Positions 14,961-35,333 of a DNA stretch of 64,000 bases are shown here, piece after piece. The notes under the pieces were generated by a model that did not search any database, was not told the origin of the DNA, and saw only the letters and a program-made list of their open reading frames with translations. The stretch is from a virus, in IMG/VR virus record IMGVR_UViG_3300046170_000371, positions 1 through 64,000 of that record. The stretch is one strand, 5' to 3'. A program made the translations under genes and the position numbers. Within the stretch, counting starts at the first letter, position 1. The number at the start of each line of letters is the position of its first letter.

Positions 14961-15308
14961 ATGATGAAAACTTACGAACTGTATGTATTTACTCAAGAGT
15001 CTTGTGCCCCTTGCACACGTCTCAAGGACCACGTCCAAACTCTCACGGAAGCTGAGCAAGCTGAACTGCACTTTGTGCCTCTTAAGACGGCCTCAGGCGC
15101 TCGTACGGCGCTTGCAGAGGAGTTATCGGTGGACCTCACACCAACGCTCGTTGTCGTACATGAGGAGGTCGCTTGCCAACTCGATGCCGATGGCGACGAA
15201 GACTGCGACTATGTCGAGCAATCAGTTGAAAGATTCGTTGGAGCTAACAGCATCATCGAACATCTACAAGCAACGCTAGACGCTTACACTTATGCACACC
15301 CTGAATGA
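14961..15308 (+). CDS. Thioredoxin/glutaredoxin-like protein
   Basis: A 115-residue protein with a CAPC redox motif near residue 14 (YVFTQESCAPCTRLKDHV) and the cis-Pro region DLTPTLVVV near residue 62: a short thioredoxin fold. An extra acidic loop with a Cys pair (LDADGDEDCDY) is inserted. Location 1.2 kb upstream of the RNR genes suggests it reduces the C-terminal Cys pair of NrdA. ATGA coupling to the next gene. Confidence 0.72.
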   Translation: MMKTYELYVFTQESCAPCTRLKDHVQTLTEAEQAELHFVPLKTASGARTALAEELSVDLTPTLVVVHEEVACQLDADGDEDCDYVEQSVERFVGANSIIEHLQATLDAYTYAHPE

Positions 15309-15679
15309 CAACAGCTAAATATGGAGTAATCCATTATCCAAAAGATAGTTATAGAGAAATCTGTGTCCCGGATGGCGCTGACAATATAGATATTGAAAGT
15401 CCTTATGCCTGGTACGAAGTAGATGATGATGCTATCTACATGGAAGTCCTTAACTTAAATCCAACCGATTACTGGGTTGGCTATTTCTTCTATAACGATA
15501 TGGAAGGTGCTGAAGATGCTTGTCCTGTTGAATGTAATACAAGAGAACATCTAGATGCTCACTGGCAATCTAATAGTGGAGGTGGTCACTATGACTGCAT
15601 TCGCTATGAACACCGAGTAAATGGTGATGTGATTGACACAATCAACCACAATTATTACGACCTTTATAACGAAGAATGA
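15305..15679 (+). CDS. Hypothetical acidic protein (124 aa)
   Basis: Asp/Glu/Tyr-rich protein (DIESPYAWYEVDDDAIYMEV) with three Cys and a His cluster (SNSGGGHYDCIRYEHR). Part of the operon leading to RNR. Unrecognised. Confidence 0.55.
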   Translation: MTTAKYGVIHYPKDSYREICVPDGADNIDIESPYAWYEVDDDAIYMEVLNLNPTDYWVGYFFYNDMEGAEDACPVECNTREHLDAHWQSNSGGGHYDCIRYEHRVNGDVIDTINHNYYDLYNEE

Positions 15680-15876
15680 CCCAATACGAACGCGAAGAAC
15701 TTATATTTGATTTAGCCCAACACAGAGTAAAGCAGTTATCACAAGCAGGGATATTCGCTATGGCGGTAGACCAAATGTGTGCACTACTTTCTCGTGAAAC
15801 TGATGAGCAACTGCTTAAAGTCTCACTGGGATATGAACCAACAAAAGATAAGAGTAAATCTGGTAAAGGATTTTAA
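15676..15876 (+). CDS. Hypothetical protein (66 aa)
   Basis: ATGA overlap upstream, abuts the IF-1 ATG. Helical (FDLAQHRVKQLSQAGIFAMA) with a Lys-rich tail. Unrecognised. Confidence 0.5.
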   Translation: MTQYEREELIFDLAQHRVKQLSQAGIFAMAVDQMCALLSRETDEQLLKVSLGYEPTKDKSKSGKGF

Positions 15877-16101
15877 ATGGCTAAAGCTAATGTAATATCA
15901 GCACGGGGTTCAATCCTTCGTGAAGATGGCAATGGATACTTTCGTGTTGAACTTGAAGACCCTGCAGGACATGTATGTCTATGCCGTGCTTCAGGTAAAC
16001 TAATTACACGTAAGATTCAACTACTTGTTGGTGACAGTGTCACCGTAGAACTCAGTCCTTACGACCTTGAACGTGGTCGTATTACCCTCAGAGAAAAATA
16101 A
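15877..16101 (+). CDS. infA: Translation initiation factor IF-1
   Basis: A 74-residue protein matching IF-1 end to end in length and fold: GNGYFRVELEDPAGHVCLCR, ASGKLITRKIQLLVGDSVTV and ELSPYDLERGRITLREK. The PAGHxCLCRAxGKL block is typical of cyanobacterial rather than E. coli IF-1, so it was probably taken from a host. IF-1 binds the 30S A site and promotes initiation; a phage copy could bias initiation or replace a limiting host factor. It abuts MazG downstream without a gap. I know of no described cyanophage IF-1, but could not search. Confidence 0.9.
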   Translation: MAKANVISARGSILREDGNGYFRVELEDPAGHVCLCRASGKLITRKIQLLVGDSVTVELSPYDLERGRITLREK

Positions 16102-16542
16102 ATGTCACTACTAGAACAAGCACGCAAGTTCCGCGAAATCTTTAGTCAAGAAGTATTGCCTAATATTTCACGTTATGGTTTCATCAAAAAGAAACTATGG
16201 GATATGCAATCACGATTAATCAGAGAAGAAGCTGGTGAGTTTCTTGTAGCTGCTGATGAATGCTTTGCTGACCCCGAAGACCCTAGACGGCGAGAGGAGT
16301 TAGTCAAAGAATTATCAGATCTTGTCTTTGTTTGCTATCAGTTTGCTGCTACTTATAACATTGATTTAGATAAGGCAATGACCCTCGTCTTTGAATCTAA
16401 TCTCAGTAAACTAGATGAACAAGGAAAGCCAATCTACCGCGAAGACGGCAAGGTTTTAAAAGGACCTAACTATCAGCCACCAGACTTAGCTGATTGTCTC
16501 CCTCAACCACAACTTAACTACTACGATACAAATGGAAAATAA
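16102..16542 (+). CDS. mazG: MazG-like nucleotide pyrophosphohydrolase
   Basis: A 146-residue protein with the all-alpha NTP-PPase metal motif: REEAGEFLVAADE (ExxE) near residue 35 and ELSDLVFVCYQFA (ExxD) near residue 72. C-terminal KGPNYQPPDL is a common tail in phage MazG relatives. Cyanophage MazG proteins hydrolyse nucleotide triphosphates; a role in altering (p)ppGpp has been proposed and disputed. The stop overlaps the NrdA start (TAATG). Confidence 0.85.
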   Translation: MSLLEQARKFREIFSQEVLPNISRYGFIKKKLWDMQSRLIREEAGEFLVAADECFADPEDPRRREELVKELSDLVFVCYQFAATYNIDLDKAMTLVFESNLSKLDEQGKPIYREDGKVLKGPNYQPPDLADCLPQPQLNYYDTNGK

Positions 16543-17954
16543 TGTCATTGCCCGGACTGGAAGAGTTCAAAACTGGATTGATGACCCTGAGTTCACGACT
16601 GCCTGTCAGCTGCACAGTCTTTGTTGTTGAAGACAGTATGGAAGGACCCAACGGCATCGAAGCCAGCTGGCGATTTGTCAGCCATGCTCTACGATTTGGA
16701 GCAGGAGTTGCAGTCCATCTCTCTAAGATTAGACCTGCTGGCACAGATAACGGGTCAGGACTCGTTGCGAGTGGCCCGTGCTCATTTGGAAAAATCTATA
16801 GTTGTCCTTAACGAACAACTCAGACGCGGAGGCGTATACAAAAACGGAGCAGTAGTTCTGCACCTTGACCTCAATCATCCAGACATCCTGGACTTTATTG
16901 ATATGCCTAGGAATGAAATCCCTTGGGCTAAACGCTGTATTGACTTGTCTCCTGTTATGTGGGACATGGCAAACCCTGTCGTTAAAGAAGCAATCCTTAA
17001 AGGCATTGCACGTGGTGACATCTGGCTTGCCAAAATCAAAAGAGATCAAAAAGGCGAACGGATTTACGCGAACGTGTGCCTCGAAGTCTTCCTTAAGAGC
17101 CGTGGCACTTGTCTCTTAGAACACATCAACGTAAGTGCTTGTACTCCAGAAGAACTTGCCTGCTGCATTTACTGCAGGCATGGCAGAGCTTTGTGCACTG
17201 CATCCAACGACTGGTGTTGAGAAAACTGGCGAGTATCTTTCTCAAGAAGAAGACCGTCAAGTTGGTCTCGGCATGCTTGGACTAGCCAACTTGCTTGCGC
17301 TGGAAGGAGTTACCTATGCTGAATTTGGTGAAGCATTGACTGCTAATAACTATCCTGAAGGCGATTACATTACGACTCCAGCTGCACGTAAAATAGTTAC
17401 ACAGCTTCAAGCAGGAATTGATGCAGCAGCAGAAGTAGCACGAGCCGCCAACATGGACCGTGCCTTCGCTATTGCTCCCACTGCCTCTTGTAGTTACCGT
17501 TACACAGACCGAGCTGGCTATACCACCGCCCCCGAACTTGCACCGCCAATCGGGCGCACAGTGGATAGGGACAGCTCTACATTCGGTGTCGAAACTTTCG
17601 ACTACGGAGATGTTGAAACAGCTGAATCTGTTGGCTGGGACAACTATCGCCGTGTAGTTGATGGAATCATGGAAATGATTAATCGCACTGGCCTAGCGCA
17701 TGGCTATAGCTTCAACTCATGGAGCGACGTTGTTCAGTACGACGACGACTTTATTGAAGCATGGCTTGATTCTCCACAGACTTCGCTGTACTACAGCTTG
17801 CAAGTCATGCAGAACACGCAAGGCAAAAGATGATGCACTAGCAGCACTTGACGGTAACTTCGGTGAGATGTTCGGCTTTAATGACGACGACGCCGATGAT
17901 GACATCATTAATGTATTTAATGACCCAGCAGCCTGTGTTGGCTGCGCTGAATAA
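16542..17954 (+). CDS. nrdA: Class I ribonucleotide reductase alpha subunit (three frameshifts)
   Basis: After removal of one extra base near 16800, 17160 and 17828, the protein is 469 residues, shorter than E. coli NrdA and without an ATP cone. Visible catalytic features: SGPCSFGK (first redox Cys), YANVCLEVFL (Asn, thiyl-radical Cys and Glu) near residue 177, GTCLLEHINVSAC (second redox Cys), SLYYSLQVMQNTQG near residue 415 with the adjacent Tyr pair diagnostic of class I, and a C-terminal CVGC. This fits the compact cyano-podo/siphovirus RNR group that I recall being reassigned from class II to class I. It supplies dNTPs with the NrdB downstream. Confidence 0.88.
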
Positions 17955-17971
17955 ACCCTATACCTAATCCA

Positions 17972-18704
17972 ATGAAAGCAGAAACTCCTTACATTCATCT
18001 TCACCAGCGCAAGCGTACCTGGACTCCTGTCCAAGTATCTGCTGGTCAGCTACTTAATGGTGGCGAAGAAGTCATTCAACGAGCACTAGCACTTCGTTGC
18101 CTTGAAATCCCAGTGGGTGACTTTATTAGCGATGCTATGAAAGGTGACCTACCTGATGTGAAAGGTTGCAAGGAGTTGCTTGCTTCTAACGTTGTTGATG
18201 AAGAAAACCATGATATTGCCCTTAACTATGCAGCTGCTGCACATGGAGTTTCCTCCCGGTTTGAGAAGGAAGCTGCACACATTTGCAAGACCTGGCTTGA
18301 GCTGGACCGTCATCCAGTTCTCAAAGCTGTTGTACTGGAAAGATCCGTCTTCTTTGTCTTACTGCCCATCTTCCGATTCCTCGGAGATACAGGATTACGC
18401 ACCACAAGCGCTGACATCAGCCGAGACGAGCAAACCCACGTTGCTGCCAACACGCTTGTATGTGAAGCGCTCGGTCTTAAATCTGACAAGACCCTCAACA
18501 ATCTCCGCCGCGCTACGGTCGCGTGGTGCCTTCAGTCCCTCAAAGGGGGAAGCTGATCACAAGCATCTGTCCAGTAACTTCTGGCTTGCAAGTTCAGATT
18601 CTCTCTACACAAGAGGGAAAGCTGAAGGTCTAGCTGAAACACGTGCAAGCCGTATGCCTGCATTCTTCGAGACTGCCAATCAAAACTTACCACAATATGC
18701 TTAA
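17972..18704 (+). CDS. nrdB: Class I ribonucleotide reductase beta subunit (one frameshift)
   Basis: About 243 residues after one extra base near 18545. Ferritin-like metal ligands: DEENHD (ExxH) near residue 76, ERSVFFVLLPIF (Glu) and SRDEQTHVAAN (ExxH) near residue 151. The residue four positions after the first His is Leu, where E. coli NrdB has the radical Tyr122, so a tyrosyl radical at the usual site is unlikely and a different metal or radical form is implied. Shorter than typical NrdB. It lies 17 bases after NrdA and overlaps the next small gene by 8 bases. Confidence 0.8.
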
Positions 18705-18981: not shown

Positions 18982-19368
18982 CACCTATACTTGAATTTAC
19001 TGGCAAAGATAAACAAAAGATTCAAATCCTTGAGCAAGAACTTGACCTAGAAAAATTTGATGACAAAGGATTGCCTGCTGATACCCATATGGTTACATAT
19101 GAAATCGAAGACAAGACTTTAATTGATGCTGTCCGTGCTTACAATAAGGTTGATATCTTTGATGCTTACTTTGATAAGCTTAAAGGACACTGGCAAAGTA
19201 GTAAAGATACAGTCTGGCTACGGCAATGTCCGACCAAACTTATACGGCAAGATTAAATCGACGATGACTAAACAAGACTACATTGACAAACTCGTTACTA
19301 TTGTTAAGCAGAAAGCAGAACACTGTACTGTCAAACAACTGCGAGTCTTAATTAACTCCTATAAATAA
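18978..19368 (+). CDS. Hypothetical protein with probable frameshift (about 129 aa)
   Basis: Begins [20 protein letters not shown]. The frame as given stops at 19256, but the next frame from about 19186 gives a better strand ([20 protein letters not shown]) that runs into [20 protein letters not shown] and ends at 19368. The alternative is two genes, 18978-19256 and 19264-19368 (34 aa). Unrecognised. Confidence 0.45.
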
Positions 19369-20001
19369 TGCACGACGCTAAACTTATCTGGGTTACACCA
19401 GATGCTGAGGCACTAATCGCTAAGATTGCCCGTGTCTCTAATCCTAAGAATGAAGATAACCCTGACTCTGAACGTCTACTGCGTTATCTAATTAAACACA
19501 AGCACTGGTCACCATTTGAAATGGCGTCTATGTGCGTAGAGATTCACACTACACGTGCTATTCTCACCACAGATTCTGCGTCACCGTAGCTTCTCTTTCC
19601 AAGAGTTCTCACAACGGTACGCTATTCCTACTGATACCTTTGCGACTGTGCTGCCAAAGCTCAGACGTCAAGATGAAGAGAACAGGCAGAACTCTATTGA
19701 TGACCTTGCAAGTGAAACTGCTGAGTACTATGAAGACCGTATTGATGCTCACTTCCGTCAAGGAGTTGAGCTGTATGAGTCTTTGCTTCACTCTGGTGTA
19801 GCTAAAGAATGTGCACGTTCTGTCCTGCCTATTAACACTGTGACTCGTCTGTATATGTCAGGCACTATTCGTAGCTGGCTTCATTACATTGACCTACGCG
19901 GTGACAACGGTACGCAGCGAGAGCATATGTCAATTGCTCGTAGTGTTGGTGAAATTCTTGATACTCAACTTCCAAATATTGCTCGCGCAATGTGGGGTTA
20001 A
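19368..20001 (+). CDS. thyX: Flavin-dependent thymidylate synthase (one frameshift)
   Basis: The ThyX signature [14 protein letters not shown] (RHRxxSxxxxSxRY) is clear, preceded by [19 protein letters not shown] and followed by [20 protein letters not shown]. One extra base near 19565 splits the gene between TTRA and QILRHRS. Corrected length is 210 residues. ThyX makes dTMP from dUMP with FAD and methylene-tetrahydrofolate, completing the dNTP block with RNR and MazG. Confidence 0.92.
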
Positions 20002-20738: not shown

Positions 20739-20760
20739 GGCTCGCGTGCGGGCCTTTTTT
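20739..20760 (+). terminator. Rho-independent terminator
   Basis: GGCTCG-CGTG-CGGGCC stem with one G-T pair, followed by six T residues. Ends the nucleotide-metabolism operon. Confidence 0.75.
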
Positions 20761-23240: not shown

Positions 23241-25441
23241 CAAAAACTGTGTCAACAAAGAGAACCCTCAGCTTGTAGCTAGGGGTTGGAAAAATGTACT
23301 AGTAGATGTTGACTATCTACTTGGTTGGGTTGACAAAGGCTACGGCTGGTGTTCAACCCATTTCATTGAGCGTTACCGGAATGCAGACAATGCAGCCGGT
23401 AGCAACCTTGTCGTTATTGATATTGATGGTGACACAACACTCGATGCATTCTGGGCTACTCAGACTGCACGTGACTGGTGCTTAGCCACCTATACATCTG
23501 CAAGTCATAGCGACAAAGAGCATAGGTTCCGTGCTCTGTTTCCACTGGAGACTGATTTGGAATCAGCATCACAACACCGTGGTGCTTACTGGTTGATTGT
23601 CAACCGATTGCTAGCAGACCTTGGACTTGAATCACTTAAAGATAACTGTGGTCAAAAGCCTGAGCGCCTTTGGTATGGCAGCTCAAGTACTACTAGCCGT
23701 GTTAATGATGGCGCGATGGTTCCCGCTTTCTTGCTGGCTGATATTGACTACGAAGAGCCTGCGGATTTCGTACGTACTGATTGCGAAGACATTGATGTAC
23801 GACGCTGTCAGTGGCTCCTACGTGAGTTCCTGGAGCCTACTAGCGACGATGAGTACGAGTCTTACTACGTGCCCGTCATGGCTGCCTGCGCTGGTGTAGG
23901 TGGCGTCTTATTTGATGACTGGGTTGACTGGGTTATCCGTGGTCATCATGGTCACAAAGAAGAAAACATTAGACCTTTTAAATGGAAAGGTCTCGGTAAG
24001 TATGCAGGTCATACTAAACTGTATTCGCTTGCAAAGAAGCAAGATGCTAACTGGACTAGACACCTACCACCTGACCTTAAGTTTGGTGCTGTAGGTGGCG
24101 CTGTTGGTTATACAGAAACAGATCCACTTGTTAGTTTTGATGATGTCATTTCCCATGCTAAAGGAGAAAACCATATGGAGTTTGAACCAGAACCGTTACC
24201 TGACTCGAAAGAGGTCAAGAAGCGGGGCCGTCCAAAGAAAAGTAGTGAAGATGCTGCTAAGGAGCGTGAAGCTGACGTAGAGAAAGTAAGAACTATTCTC
24301 ACTGACCTACGTAAGAATGAGCTGACTAACGCTATTGAGTACACCGATGCTCAAGGTAAAACGATTGCACTTCAAGGTAATGACCTTGACTTGATGACTA
24401 CCAAGATGGCATGCGAGTACGGGATATTCATTCCTGAGCCACGCATTAAATCTGCTATTCAATATGCAGCGCAGAAGAATAGCTACTGTCCTATCCGTCG
24501 TTACCTTGACCACTGTGCAGCTCACGCAAAGCCTCACAAAGATTGGGACAAGGTTGGTGAAATCTTCCTAGGTAACAAGCACAGCATTGCTACTCTCGCT
24601 ATGCAACGCATGATGATTGGTGCAGTTGCTCGTGCTTATAACCCTGGCTGCTCTATGTCATGGCTACCCATCCTTGTGGGTGCTCAAGGTGTAGGTAAGT
24701 CTATGTTCTCTCGCAACCTAGTCCCTGACTTGTTGTTTGCAGAGATTACTACTCCACTAGATACACTCATCAAAGAGCAGTACAGACTGCACGTTGCTTG
24801 GTTACTAGAGCTACCTGAGATTGATAACTACTTCAACATCAGGAACATTGAGAACTTCAAGAACCTTGTGACCTAGCAGGGTAGATGAAGTGCGTTACCC
24901 ATACGCATCACTGCCATCTAAGTTGCCACGTCGCTTCGTGATGATTGGTACTACTAACCGTAACCAGTTCCTTGTAGACAGCACAGGCAACAGACGTTTC
25001 GTCCCACTAGAAATTGGTGGTGGCTTTCAGATTCCTTGGAAGCAACTAGCTGAAGAGCGTGACAGCCTCTGGGCTGCTGCAGTTCAAGCGTTCCGTAGTG
25101 GTGAAGGTTACGAGTTCAACAGTGGTGAGATTGCTGCTATCTCTGAGTACATTCAAGAGTTCGGTGACCCTGACCCCTGGATGGATAAGGTTGCTAGTTA
25201 CGTAGCAATCCGTGAGGAAGTTACAGCTGCTGATGTTCTTACACATGCACTAGAGCTTGACCCACGCAACCAAGGTCGTAGGGAAGCAAGACGTATTGCT
25301 GATGTATTGCAGACAATGGGATGGCGACGACTAGTCACCTCCCGTAAAGACCCAGTCACTGGTAAGTCTAAGTCTGTACGTGTATGGCAACGTCCTAAAG
25401 ATGACCCTCTGACTGAAGACCATATCCTTAATGACTTCTAA
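23209..25441 (+). CDS. Primase-helicase: AEP-like primase fused to VirE/D5-type ATPase (one frameshift)
   Basis: 743 residues after one extra base near 24873 (ACCTAGCAGG). N-terminal primase-like part: LVVIDIDGD (acidic pair), SASHSDKEHRFRALF and ERLWYGSSST. A Lys/Arg linker (VKKRGRPKKSSED) follows. The C-terminal helicase has Walker A VGAQGVGKS near residue 495, Walker B VAWLLELPEID, then MIGTTNRNQFLVDSTGNRRF with the sensor Asn and arginine finger. It would unwind the fork and make primers for the phage polymerase. The start could be slightly later, as it overlaps the exonuclease. Confidence 0.82.
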
Positions 25442-28553: not shown

Positions 28554-29120
28554 GTGGATATGATTGCACCATTAGGAGACCCGACTTATATTAAAAATAA
28601 AGAGAAATACTTTATGTCTATTGCTAAGACTGTAGGACTTGCTTCAACGCATCCTAAGTCTCCTGGCGGCTGCATTCTCGTACGTGACCGAGAGATTATT
28701 GGAGATGGACGTTCCATTCTCACAGCATCCAAAGTTGAAATTGATTGCCTGACATATGCCATTGCAACATGCTCTAAGCGAGGGACACCTACTGCTGGAG
28801 CGACCGTCTATACAACACGCTATCCCTTCTCTGCCTCAGTCTTTCAGTGTTACCTCATGGGTATTAAAAAGATTGTTGTCCTTGCACATGAATGGGAAGC
28901 TTATTACAAAGATGAATTCCGTCGAGCTGCACGGCTTGGACGTGAACTAAGCATCGCTATCGAACCCCTCTTTGATGAGGAAGACCCACGCTTTGGGGTT
29001 AACAAAGCACCTAAACGCAAACTTGAAAAAGAACTCTACGACGCATCAACTTTTGTTGTCGATGAGTATGACCCAAAAACTACTACTGAAAATCTAGATG
29101 ACTACCAACCTACTGTTTGA
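28554..29120 (+). CDS. dCMP deaminase-like protein with degenerate zinc motifs
   Basis: 188 residues from GTG 28554 (ATG at 28560 possible), with AGGAG 15 bases upstream. The layout follows dCMP/CMP deaminases: GGCILVRDREIIGDGRS, SKVEIDCLTYAI and YTTRYPFSASVFQCYLMGIK with KIV. The expected HAE reads VEI and the expected PCxxC reads PFSAS, so the canonical zinc ligands are missing and catalysis is doubtful. It may be a regulatory or structural relic. It overlaps the exonuclease gene by 23 bases. Confidence 0.6.
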   Translation: MDMIAPLGDPTYIKNKEKYFMSIAKTVGLASTHPKSPGGCILVRDREIIGDGRSILTASKVEIDCLTYAIATCSKRGTPTAGATVYTTRYPFSASVFQCYLMGIKKIVVLAHEWEAYYKDEFRRAARLGRELSIAIEPLFDEEDPRFGVNKAPKRKLEKELYDASTFVVDEYDPKTTTENLDDYQPTV

Positions 29121-29628
29121 CATTGAATCCACTGGCCTGCTTCGTCGCGGCTCCACCATCCATTGCATTGTTGTGCGTGACATGAGCACAGCTAACGACC
29201 CTATTGTCTTTGACTACAAGCCTGAGCGTGCTGTCGTTCAAGGCATCAAGCAGCTTGAGAATGCTGATGCACTCATTGGTCACAACATTGCTGGCTATGA
29301 CATCCCACTTATCAAAGAGCAGTTCCCTGACTTCGACTTCCAAGGTGAAGTGCTTGACACTCTTGTCATGTCTCGCTTGTACTATCCAAACATCAGTGAC
29401 CGCGATTATGAGCGTCGTCCTGATGGCATGCCTCAGCGTTTGTATGGACGTCATTCACTCGAAGCATGGGGCTATCGCTTAAAGTGTTTCAAGGGAGACT
29501 TTGCTAAGAACGAAAGCAACGACTGGAGTACTTACACCCCTGAGATGCTTGATTACTGCATCCAAGATACGCAAGTCACACTGCGTTTATACGAACTACT
29601 ACAACGAAGAATGGAGACTTATGCCTGA
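29098..29628 (+). CDS. 3'-5' exonuclease part of a split family A DNA polymerase
   Basis: 176 residues with the proofreading motifs: Exo I LLFDIESTGLL (DxE) near residue 8, Exo II IGHNIAGYDIPL near residue 60, and Exo III YCIQDTQVTLRLYEL near residue 155. It equals the N-terminal half of T7 gp5 but ends with its own TGA. The polymerase ORF starts at an ATG eight bases upstream of that stop, so the two could be coupled and assemble in trans. A split polymerase is, as I recall, a reported hallmark of this cyanophage lineage. Confidence 0.85.
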   Translation: MTTNLLFDIESTGLLRRGSTIHCIVVRDMSTANDPIVFDYKPERAVVQGIKQLENADALIGHNIAGYDIPLIKEQFPDFDFQGEVLDTLVMSRLYYPNISDRDYERRPDGMPQRLYGRHSLEAWGYRLKCFKGDFAKNESNDWSTYTPEMLDYCIQDTQVTLRLYELLQRRMETYA

Positions 29629-30923
29629 TTACATCAAACTCGAAATGGATATGGCCATGCTTATGGCTCAGCAAGAAGCATCAGGGTTTCGCTTTGATAT
29701 GGATGCTGCAGTGCGTGTTCGTGCACAGCTCCAGGATGAGTTTGATTCTATTACTGATGCTATTGCCAAAATATATCTGTACGTACCAGGTAAAGTCTTT
29801 ACTCCCAAGCGTGCAGATAAGAAGCGTGGCTACGTAGCAGGTGCTCCTATGACACGTCTGACTGACTTCAATCCGACGTCACGTCAGAACATTGCATGGG
29901 CATTGCAGACCTTCCGTGGTGCTCGTTTTACAAGGGTTACAGAGACTGGTAAGCCTAAAGGTTGATGAAGCAACTCTCTCTGAGGTGCGGGACATTGCAC
30001 TGTCTGCTGGTAATCAGCAGCTGCATGACGAGTGTGAGATGTTTATCCGTTTGTTGACACTGCAGAAGTGGCTGGGTCAGCTGTCCGAGGGAACCAACTC
30101 TTGGTTCAACTCTATTGAGGGGGACGGCTGTATCCACCACAGCTGCACACTGTCAACACAGACGGGACGTAACGCTCACCGTGGTCCCAACTTGGGCCAG
30201 GTCGTCTCTGCACCATGGGCACGTGAACTATTTGTTCCACACCCTGGTCACATCATGGTGGGTGCTGACTTAGAAGGACTGGAATTAAGACTGCTTGGGC
30301 ACTACCTAGCAGCCTTTGATGAAGGCTCCTTCGCTGAGGTTGTTGTCAACGGCGACATCCATCAACAGAACGCTGACCGTGTGGGGTGTACACGTACACA
30401 AGTCAAGACCCTCACGTATGCGTTCATATACGGTGCAGGTGACGTGAAGCTGGGACATAGTCTTCAGCCTGAGCTGTCAGATGCACAGAAGAAAACACTT
30501 GGCGGTGAGTTACGCCGCAAATTCCTTGACGCTATCCCTGGATTGGAGCCATTAGTAGATGCAGTTAAACTTAAAGTTCGGTCAACTGGTCGCCTTAGGG
30601 GCCTTGATGGGCGTCCTATATTCTGTCGTGCTGAGCACAGTAGTCCCAACTTCTTACTTCAGTCTGCCGGAGCAATCATCTCCAAGCGATGGGTGGTGAT
30701 TGGGCAGCAACTGTTAGATGATGCAGGGCTTACGTATGACCGTGACTACACTCGCTGTGCTTACGTGCACGATGAAGTACAGATGTCTGTCGTGCCTGCT
30801 GAAGTTGACCGTATGAAGATGCTGTTAGAAGCAGCAGCACCTGAAGCTGGTAAGTACTACAACCTGCGTGTGCCTATTGCTGCAGCTGCAGACCATGGTT
30901 CCTCATGGCAAGAGACCCACTAA
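29621..30923 (+). CDS. Family A DNA polymerase catalytic part (split gene, one frameshift)
   Basis: 433 residues after one extra G near 29957. Motif A MVGADLEGLELRLLGHYLA, motif B RTQVKTLTYAFIYGAGDVKL and motif C YVHDEVQ are all present and T7-like. The residue equivalent to E. coli Pol I Phe762 (T7 Tyr526) is Tyr. It lacks its own exonuclease domain, which is the preceding gene. The ATG at 29621 overlaps the exonuclease stop. It is the replicative polymerase, acting with the primase-helicase. It ends in a TAATG junction with the GIY-YIG gene. Confidence 0.92.
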
Positions 30924-34432: not shown

Positions 34433-34541
34433 AAACTACGCTAACTACAGTAGTTTTCTATATATCTATTATTTAATCCTACGTAGCTCCTATATATCTA
34501 TTATTTAAAAACAGTATATAGGGATTAGCGTAGTTAGCGTA
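34433..34541. repeat. Repeat-rich region beside the integrase
   Basis: Contains an inverted repeat (AAACTAC ... GTAGTTT), an 18-bp direct repeat CTATATATCTATTATTTA at 34458-34475 and 34490-34507, and GGGATTAGCGTAGTTAGCGT followed by AG, shared in near-identical form with 7440-7460. It overlaps the integrase 3' end. Candidate integrase arm sites or replication signals. Confidence 0.55.
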
Positions 34542-35333
34542 GCTTTTGTAGCGCTGCTTGTAGTAAGTGGAGGCGTGTCTTCCCGTACTGAGCAGTGGTA
34601 GAAGCTTTAGCGTGACCAGTAAGAATATCAATCATATATTCCTCAATGCCTGCGTCTCTACAACGAGTGTGAAAACTATGGCGAAGCGTATGTGCTGCTT
34701 CAAACTTAGGTAGCTGCATATTCTTTCTAAAGTTTTCGCTCCAGCTAGCGCCAGGGCGTAACGCTTTTGATTGACGAAAGTTACCTATCACCCGAGTACA
34801 GGCAGGGTGGATGGGCACCTTCCTTCTTGATGGTCTGTTTTTTAAGTCGCGGTTCTCTTGGTCTGTAAATGTGAAGTATGGAATGTCTGCATCTTGCACG
34901 ATGTTCTGTGGGTCAAGCCCTGCTACTTCACCGATGCGTGCGCCTGTAAACCAAAGGATTACAAAGTATGGGTCGTCGTGATACTGCTTGTAGTAATCCC
35001 ACTCGTAGAACTCTGGGTCCCTGCTTTCAATTACAAGCCCATCGTCTGCATCTAACCAAGGGTTATCAGCTTTTGTACCAGGCACCAGCTTCATCTTTCT
35101 ACCTTTATTCCAGATGGCTTTAAGACTGCTGAGCCTTGTCTTTGTTGTGCTTTCACACACCCGCTCTAACCAGTAGATGCGTTGGTCAAGCACTACTTCA
35201 TCTGTGACTTGGTCAATCGTTAGTTCTCCAATAGGTCCGACTGGCTTTGAGCCAGTTGGCATACGGTGGAGTCTGTGATTTTGTAAAGCTTCTTAAGCTT
35301 TGCGGCAAGGGTTTGCACCTTCATAGGGTTCAT
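34534..35333 (-). CDS. int: Tyrosine recombinase (phage integrase), one frameshift
   Basis: About 266 residues from ATG 35333 (MNPMKVQTLAAKLKKLYKIT) after adding one base near 35265; without it the frame starts at 35262. Catalytic residues: FTGARIGEVAGL (Arg I), HTLRHSFHTR (HxxR), LTGHAKASTTAQY (His and the Tyr nucleophile). The N-terminal SAM-like domain is in the frameshifted part. It would integrate the phage at a host tRNA gene, and a tRNA-like segment lies 70 bases upstream. The gene is complete apart from the indel. Confidence 0.9.

Follow-up and report, generated by a model that had tools for sequence, protein, structure and literature searches.

A conserved, divergent translation initiation factor IF-1 in mid-size cyanophages

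Bacterial IF-1 (InfA) binds the A site of the 30S subunit, where it works alongside IF2 and IF3 and, through helix 44, influences the fidelity checkpoint as the subunits join (PMC4611024; preprint PMC13345285). In the Clostridioides difficile factor, residues K39 and M42 contact G530, R41 and R46 contact the flipped-out A1492 and A1493, and H35, Y60, R64 and R66 are found on the S12 side (PMC10913371). Phage-encoded IF-1 as such is already published: Al-Shayeb et al. (2020, PMC7162821) described IF1 genes in huge phages, and in Jug phages the factor appears as ‘translation initiation factor 1A’ (PMC12363816). The huge phages (Lak, Jug) exceed 200 kb and often have other translation genes; their own IF-1 is proposed to redirect initiation in the host. 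Phages also encode ribosomal proteins, among them bS21 (Mizuno et al. 2019, PMC6375957), likewise a small 30S-associated protein but a different one from IF-1. We describe here a fixed, divergent IF-1 in sub-100-kb cyanophages in which both arginines contacting A1492 and A1493 are replaced; this is new, and no report of infA in cyanophages was found in the open-access literature.

The DNA analysed, referred to below as the window, makes 64,000 nt of an 87,159-base virus record (IMG/VR IMGVR_UViG_3300046170_000371) that carries psbA and psbD. The psbA gene is 82–83% identical to psbA of Synechococcus phages. Comparison with Synechococcus phage S-EIV1 (KJ410740) gave identities of 65% for the capsid, 49% for the portal and 55% for the terminase, and by these common genes we assign the phage to an S-EIV1-like lineage. 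S-EIV1 itself differs in having no infA and no match to the psbA, mazG and nrdAB genes of the window phage. The infA-bearing viruses form a large, mostly uncultured marine group that appears to infect blue-green bacteria; the hosts are probably picocyanobacteria. A search of this genome for other translation genes (tRNA, S21 and peptide deformylase) found none.

The infA gene is an intact ORF running from ATG to TAA. Its product begins with MAKANVIS, ends with GRITLREK and contains PAGHVCLCRASGKL. The earlier note, made by reading the DNA alone, had proposed a full-length IF-1 here, and the searches bear this out. The protein scores 64.6 bits (E 6e-18) against the infA equivalog model TIGR00008, a small margin over the NCBI cut-off of 61.15 bits, and it matches Pfam eIF-1a (PF01176) with E 2e-15. 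In a sequence search of the PDB the best matches were all bacterial IF-1s (E 9e-16). An AlphaFold2 model (mean pLDDT 83) had bacterial IF-1s as all of its top 12 PDB structure matches, with TM 0.75–0.87; among the best were the 30S-bound factors 9fco_I (TM 0.87, 1.4 Å) and 1hr0_W. TIGR00008 was also matched (E ≤ 0.001) by 28 out of 28 tested members of the cyanophage family. A chance ORF or an unrelated OB protein is ruled out by the HMM, PDB and fold searches, and the unrelated OB protein devoid of ribosome-binding residues, which the earlier note had named as the refuting outcome, was not what we found. The ORF is thus confirmed as a genuine phage IF-1, far beyond chance. With bacterial IF-1 it shares the length, the OB fold, the SGK and SPYDLxRGRI motifs and the equivalents of R64, R66 and R70; it differs by a two-residue insertion (PxGH) and by the changes R41 to I/V, R46 to Q/H and H35 to R. 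The IF-1s of large phages returned by the search of a phage collection were only 36–45% identical to it.

Table 1. Features of the infA region, in window coordinates
Feature	Position	Strand	Basis
Thioredoxin-like ORF, conserved neighbour upstream of infA	14961..15308	+	Pfam Thioredoxin_2, E 2.5e-5 (just under the Pfam cut-off)
Small ORF, 66 aa, directly upstream of infA	15676..15876	+	No Pfam/PHROG match
AAAGGA, SD-like motif shortly before the infA ATG, within the end of the preceding ORF	15859..15876	+	Sequence
infA, encoding a 74-aa phage IF-1	15877..16101	+	TIGR00008, Pfam eIF-1a, predicted OB fold
mazG-like nucleotide pyrophosphohydrolase, starting directly after the infA stop	16102..16542	+	Pfam PRA-PH, PHROG 671, synteny
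nrdA, class I RNR large subunit, in three frames in this record	16542..17833	+	ORF list, synteny
nrdB, RNR small subunit	17972..18556	+	Synteny; homologue in L237 matches PHROG 6799 RNR beta
thyX-like gene, frameshift-split here	19368..20001	+	Match to the FAD-dependent thymidylate synthase of S-EIV1
End of the infA gene run: terminator-like hairpin plus T tract	20739..20760	+	Consensus scan

The gene is encoded together with the nucleotide-metabolism genes mazG, nrdA, nrdB and thyX (Table 1). The plus-strand run starts with the thioredoxin-like gene and two small ORFs, continues through infA and these four genes to a possible gene for an ssDNA-binding protein (our own reading; no PHROG match), and is closed by a terminator-like hairpin. 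As described in the earlier note, infA sits without gaps between a small ORF and mazG, and the two ribonucleotide reductase genes follow. The 66-aa ORF upstream is weakly conserved and was undetected in many relatives, while the thioredoxin-like gene precedes infA in almost every relative whose contig spans the region. A scan for sigma-70 promoters returned fewer sites than in shuffled sequence, and we claim no promoter.

The arrangement recurs widely. Two scans of IMG/VR yielded about 60 contigs with close infA homologues, nearly all at 73–97% identity, and the order infA-mazG-nrdA-nrdB is kept across them. In one divergent relative (L237) mazG is not detectable and infA adjoins nrdA. A search with nrdB alone as bait, which is blind to infA, gave 59 contigs; in all 44 of those with at least 2.6 kb of upstream DNA infA was present 2.0–2.3 kb upstream of nrdB. 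With the portal gene alone as bait we obtained 12 contigs: infA was present in four out of the four that are 69–82 kb long and absent from the eight shorter fragments (28–49 kb), an expected result given the long distance between the portal gene and infA. Conversely, the portal gene is present in 15 of 16 tested infA-carrying contigs of 57–106 kb. The median dN/dS of infA is 0.079 (250 usable pairs). The gene is therefore a fixed, conserved gene of the lineage under strong purifying selection and not a stray capture.

In a tree built on 73 columns, too few for the deeper forks, the cyanophage sequences group as a single clade (SH-aLRT 99), separate from the other viral IF-1s sampled. Contamination with host DNA is excluded, since some 60 contigs have infA inside a phage operon, and recent capture from a host is unlikely given the deep divergence within this single phage clade. 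None of the cultured cyanophages in a phage collection of 50,697 records has infA. Elsewhere in IMG/VR, IF-1 genes are widespread (contigs L037–L044 and L141–L214), with 218 relatives in one scan. Five records of the phage collection (OR844994, OR847832, OR847427, OR846589 and OR848654), unannotated ‘phages’ of Staphylococcus, Listeria and Enterococcus with IF-1 matches of 50–53% identity, possibly represent host chromosome.

The earlier note called the phage factor cyanobacterial in type, and cyanobacterial ancestry is plausible. A presumed picocyanobacterial IF-1 sequence used as bait was 65–68% identical to the best-matching members of the phage family, and every other viral match was weaker, save two short partial ones. 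Synechococcus WH8102 and Prochlorococcus MED4 have a single infA each according to a published table (PMC6337551).

The strong conservation and the place among metabolic genes are what one would expect of a plain top-up copy, doing the same job as host IF-1 and upholding the ratio of IF-1 to ribosomes as host expression collapses; several residues at the ribosome interface agree with it as well. The alignment to the C. difficile factor is gap-free from SGK to GD, and residues can thus be mapped directly. Retained in the window protein are K41, Y62, R66, R68 and R72 (C. difficile K39, Y60, R64, R66 and R70). Across the 62 family members K39 is replaced by R in 21, Y60 by F in 26 and R64 by K in two, whereas R66 and R70 are invariant (C. 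difficile numbering). What speaks against a simple duplicate is the pair of arginines facing A1492 and A1493. The window protein has Ile43 in place of R41 and Gln48 in place of R46. In the family, position 41 is Ile in 57 sequences and Val in five (62/62), and position 46 is Gln in 58 and His in three (all 61 sequences covering the site). All 80 cellular IF-1s compared, a set with no cyanobacteria, carry R or K at each of the two sites. The 81 other viral IF-1s mostly have R or K at both as well, some lacking one; Ile or Val at 41 occurs in none of them, and the two changes are never found together there. With these two arginines missing family-wide, the phage factor does not look like a plain host-like copy, and we judge the top-up reading, which has to take the residue changes as neutral or host-derived, to be unlikely.

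Separately, 12 of the 81 other viral IF-1s pair R41 with Gln46 and show the cyanophage change in part. The replacements may in part be inherited from the host lineage, since the comparison set has no cyanobacteria and the presumed host IF-1 carries Thr and Lys at positions 41 and 46, respectively. Positions R41 and R46 are outside the curated definition of the infA family; judged by sequence, membership in the IF-1 family stands, but functional equivalence does not follow from it.

The best reading, which we consider probable though well short of certain, is that of a factor for the 30S A site, adapted to alter initiation in the infected cell. The phage IF-1 would bind the A site of the infected cell's 30S subunits against uS12 and the 530 loop, docking via Lys41, Tyr62, Arg66, Arg68, Arg72 and the general OB surface, and there it would add to or compete with host IF-1. 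Helix 44 would probably be held differently from the way cellular IF-1 holds it, because Ile/Val and Gln/His replace R41 and R46 at the A1492/A1493 contacts. The initiation checkpoint and its selectivity would then probably be altered, or IF-1 released faster, in favour of the mostly SD-poor phage mRNAs. The data show the identity of the gene, its predicted fold, the selection on it, the fixed synteny and the replaced residues; the timing of expression, 30S binding, competition with host IF-1, the effect on start sites and the takeover of initiation suggested in the earlier note are inferred.

The phage genome is indeed SD-poor, with SD-like motifs before 16% of its genes versus a background of 8% at internal ATGs, and for this reason a shift in initiation could favour phage messages. 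A stronger version, in which a specialised IF-1 binds 30S subunits but lacks the normal hold on A1492/A1493, and by this means shifts the choice of start sites until SD-poor phage messages win out over those of the host, seems to us doubtful. The SD-like motif before infA is kept as AAGGA in the relatives L001 and L002 and not in more distant ones. A link between the phage IF-1 and leaderless starts, as put forward in the earlier note, did not find support: leaderless transcripts are invisible in DNA, and infA lies in the middle of a gene run with AAAGGA just upstream.

The lost contacts could also mean weak or no activity on the 30S subunit. A dominant-negative IF-1, occupying the A site without the flip of A1492 and A1493 and so blocking host initiation, would agree with the loss of both decoding-site contacts and the retention of the residues facing S12 and the 530 loop. 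We nevertheless hold such a shut-off factor to be quite improbable, given that the phage needs the same ribosomes, that no phage bypass factor was found and that the gene is selected much as a working factor would be. E. coli IF-1 is reported to have RNA chaperone and transcription antiterminator activities, and the OB fold with a basic loop (TRK), along with the many terminator-like hairpins in the genome, would suit a protein of this kind that is not mainly a translation factor. The C-terminal residues contacting S12 and 16S rRNA are, however, invariant or nearly so, and we give this explanation the least weight of all.

Returning to the tuned A-site factor, giant phages with IF-1 are hard to handle, whereas here infA is fixed in mid-size cyanophages. 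As the gene is fixed, no other translation gene among those sought is present and the lost contact pair is defined, a clean test is possible with one small protein, one binding site and one predicted effect on initiation.

Several further features of the genome were observed. A sigma-70-like factor (PHROG 351) is encoded at genome positions 68280–69215 (L128 4280–5215, minus strand) and suggests phage-specific promoters. An integrase-family gene, at 34534–35262 (−) of the window of this psbA-bearing cyanophage, hints at a life style that is temperate or was once so. Frameshifts split the end of psbA (10448), nrdA (16542–17833) and thyX (19368–20001), and the primase-helicase and DNA polymerase genes are split as well (24876–24890 and 29098–30923). 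Since most of the relatives checked have nrdA unsplit, as a single ORF of some 472 aa, the frameshifts suggest assembly indels.

The hairpin GCGCCC-TAAC-GGGCGC (16 bases), with a T-rich stretch after it, has seven plus-strand copies in the window (at 146, 2866, 3803, 4699, 12793, 13200 and 28137), five of them exact and two with two mismatches, against zero expected from shuffled sequence. At the corresponding places relatives have hairpins with other stems (GCCGGC, GCCGCC and GCCCCC), and the hairpins are usually near-identical inside a given genome, in the manner of concerted evolution.
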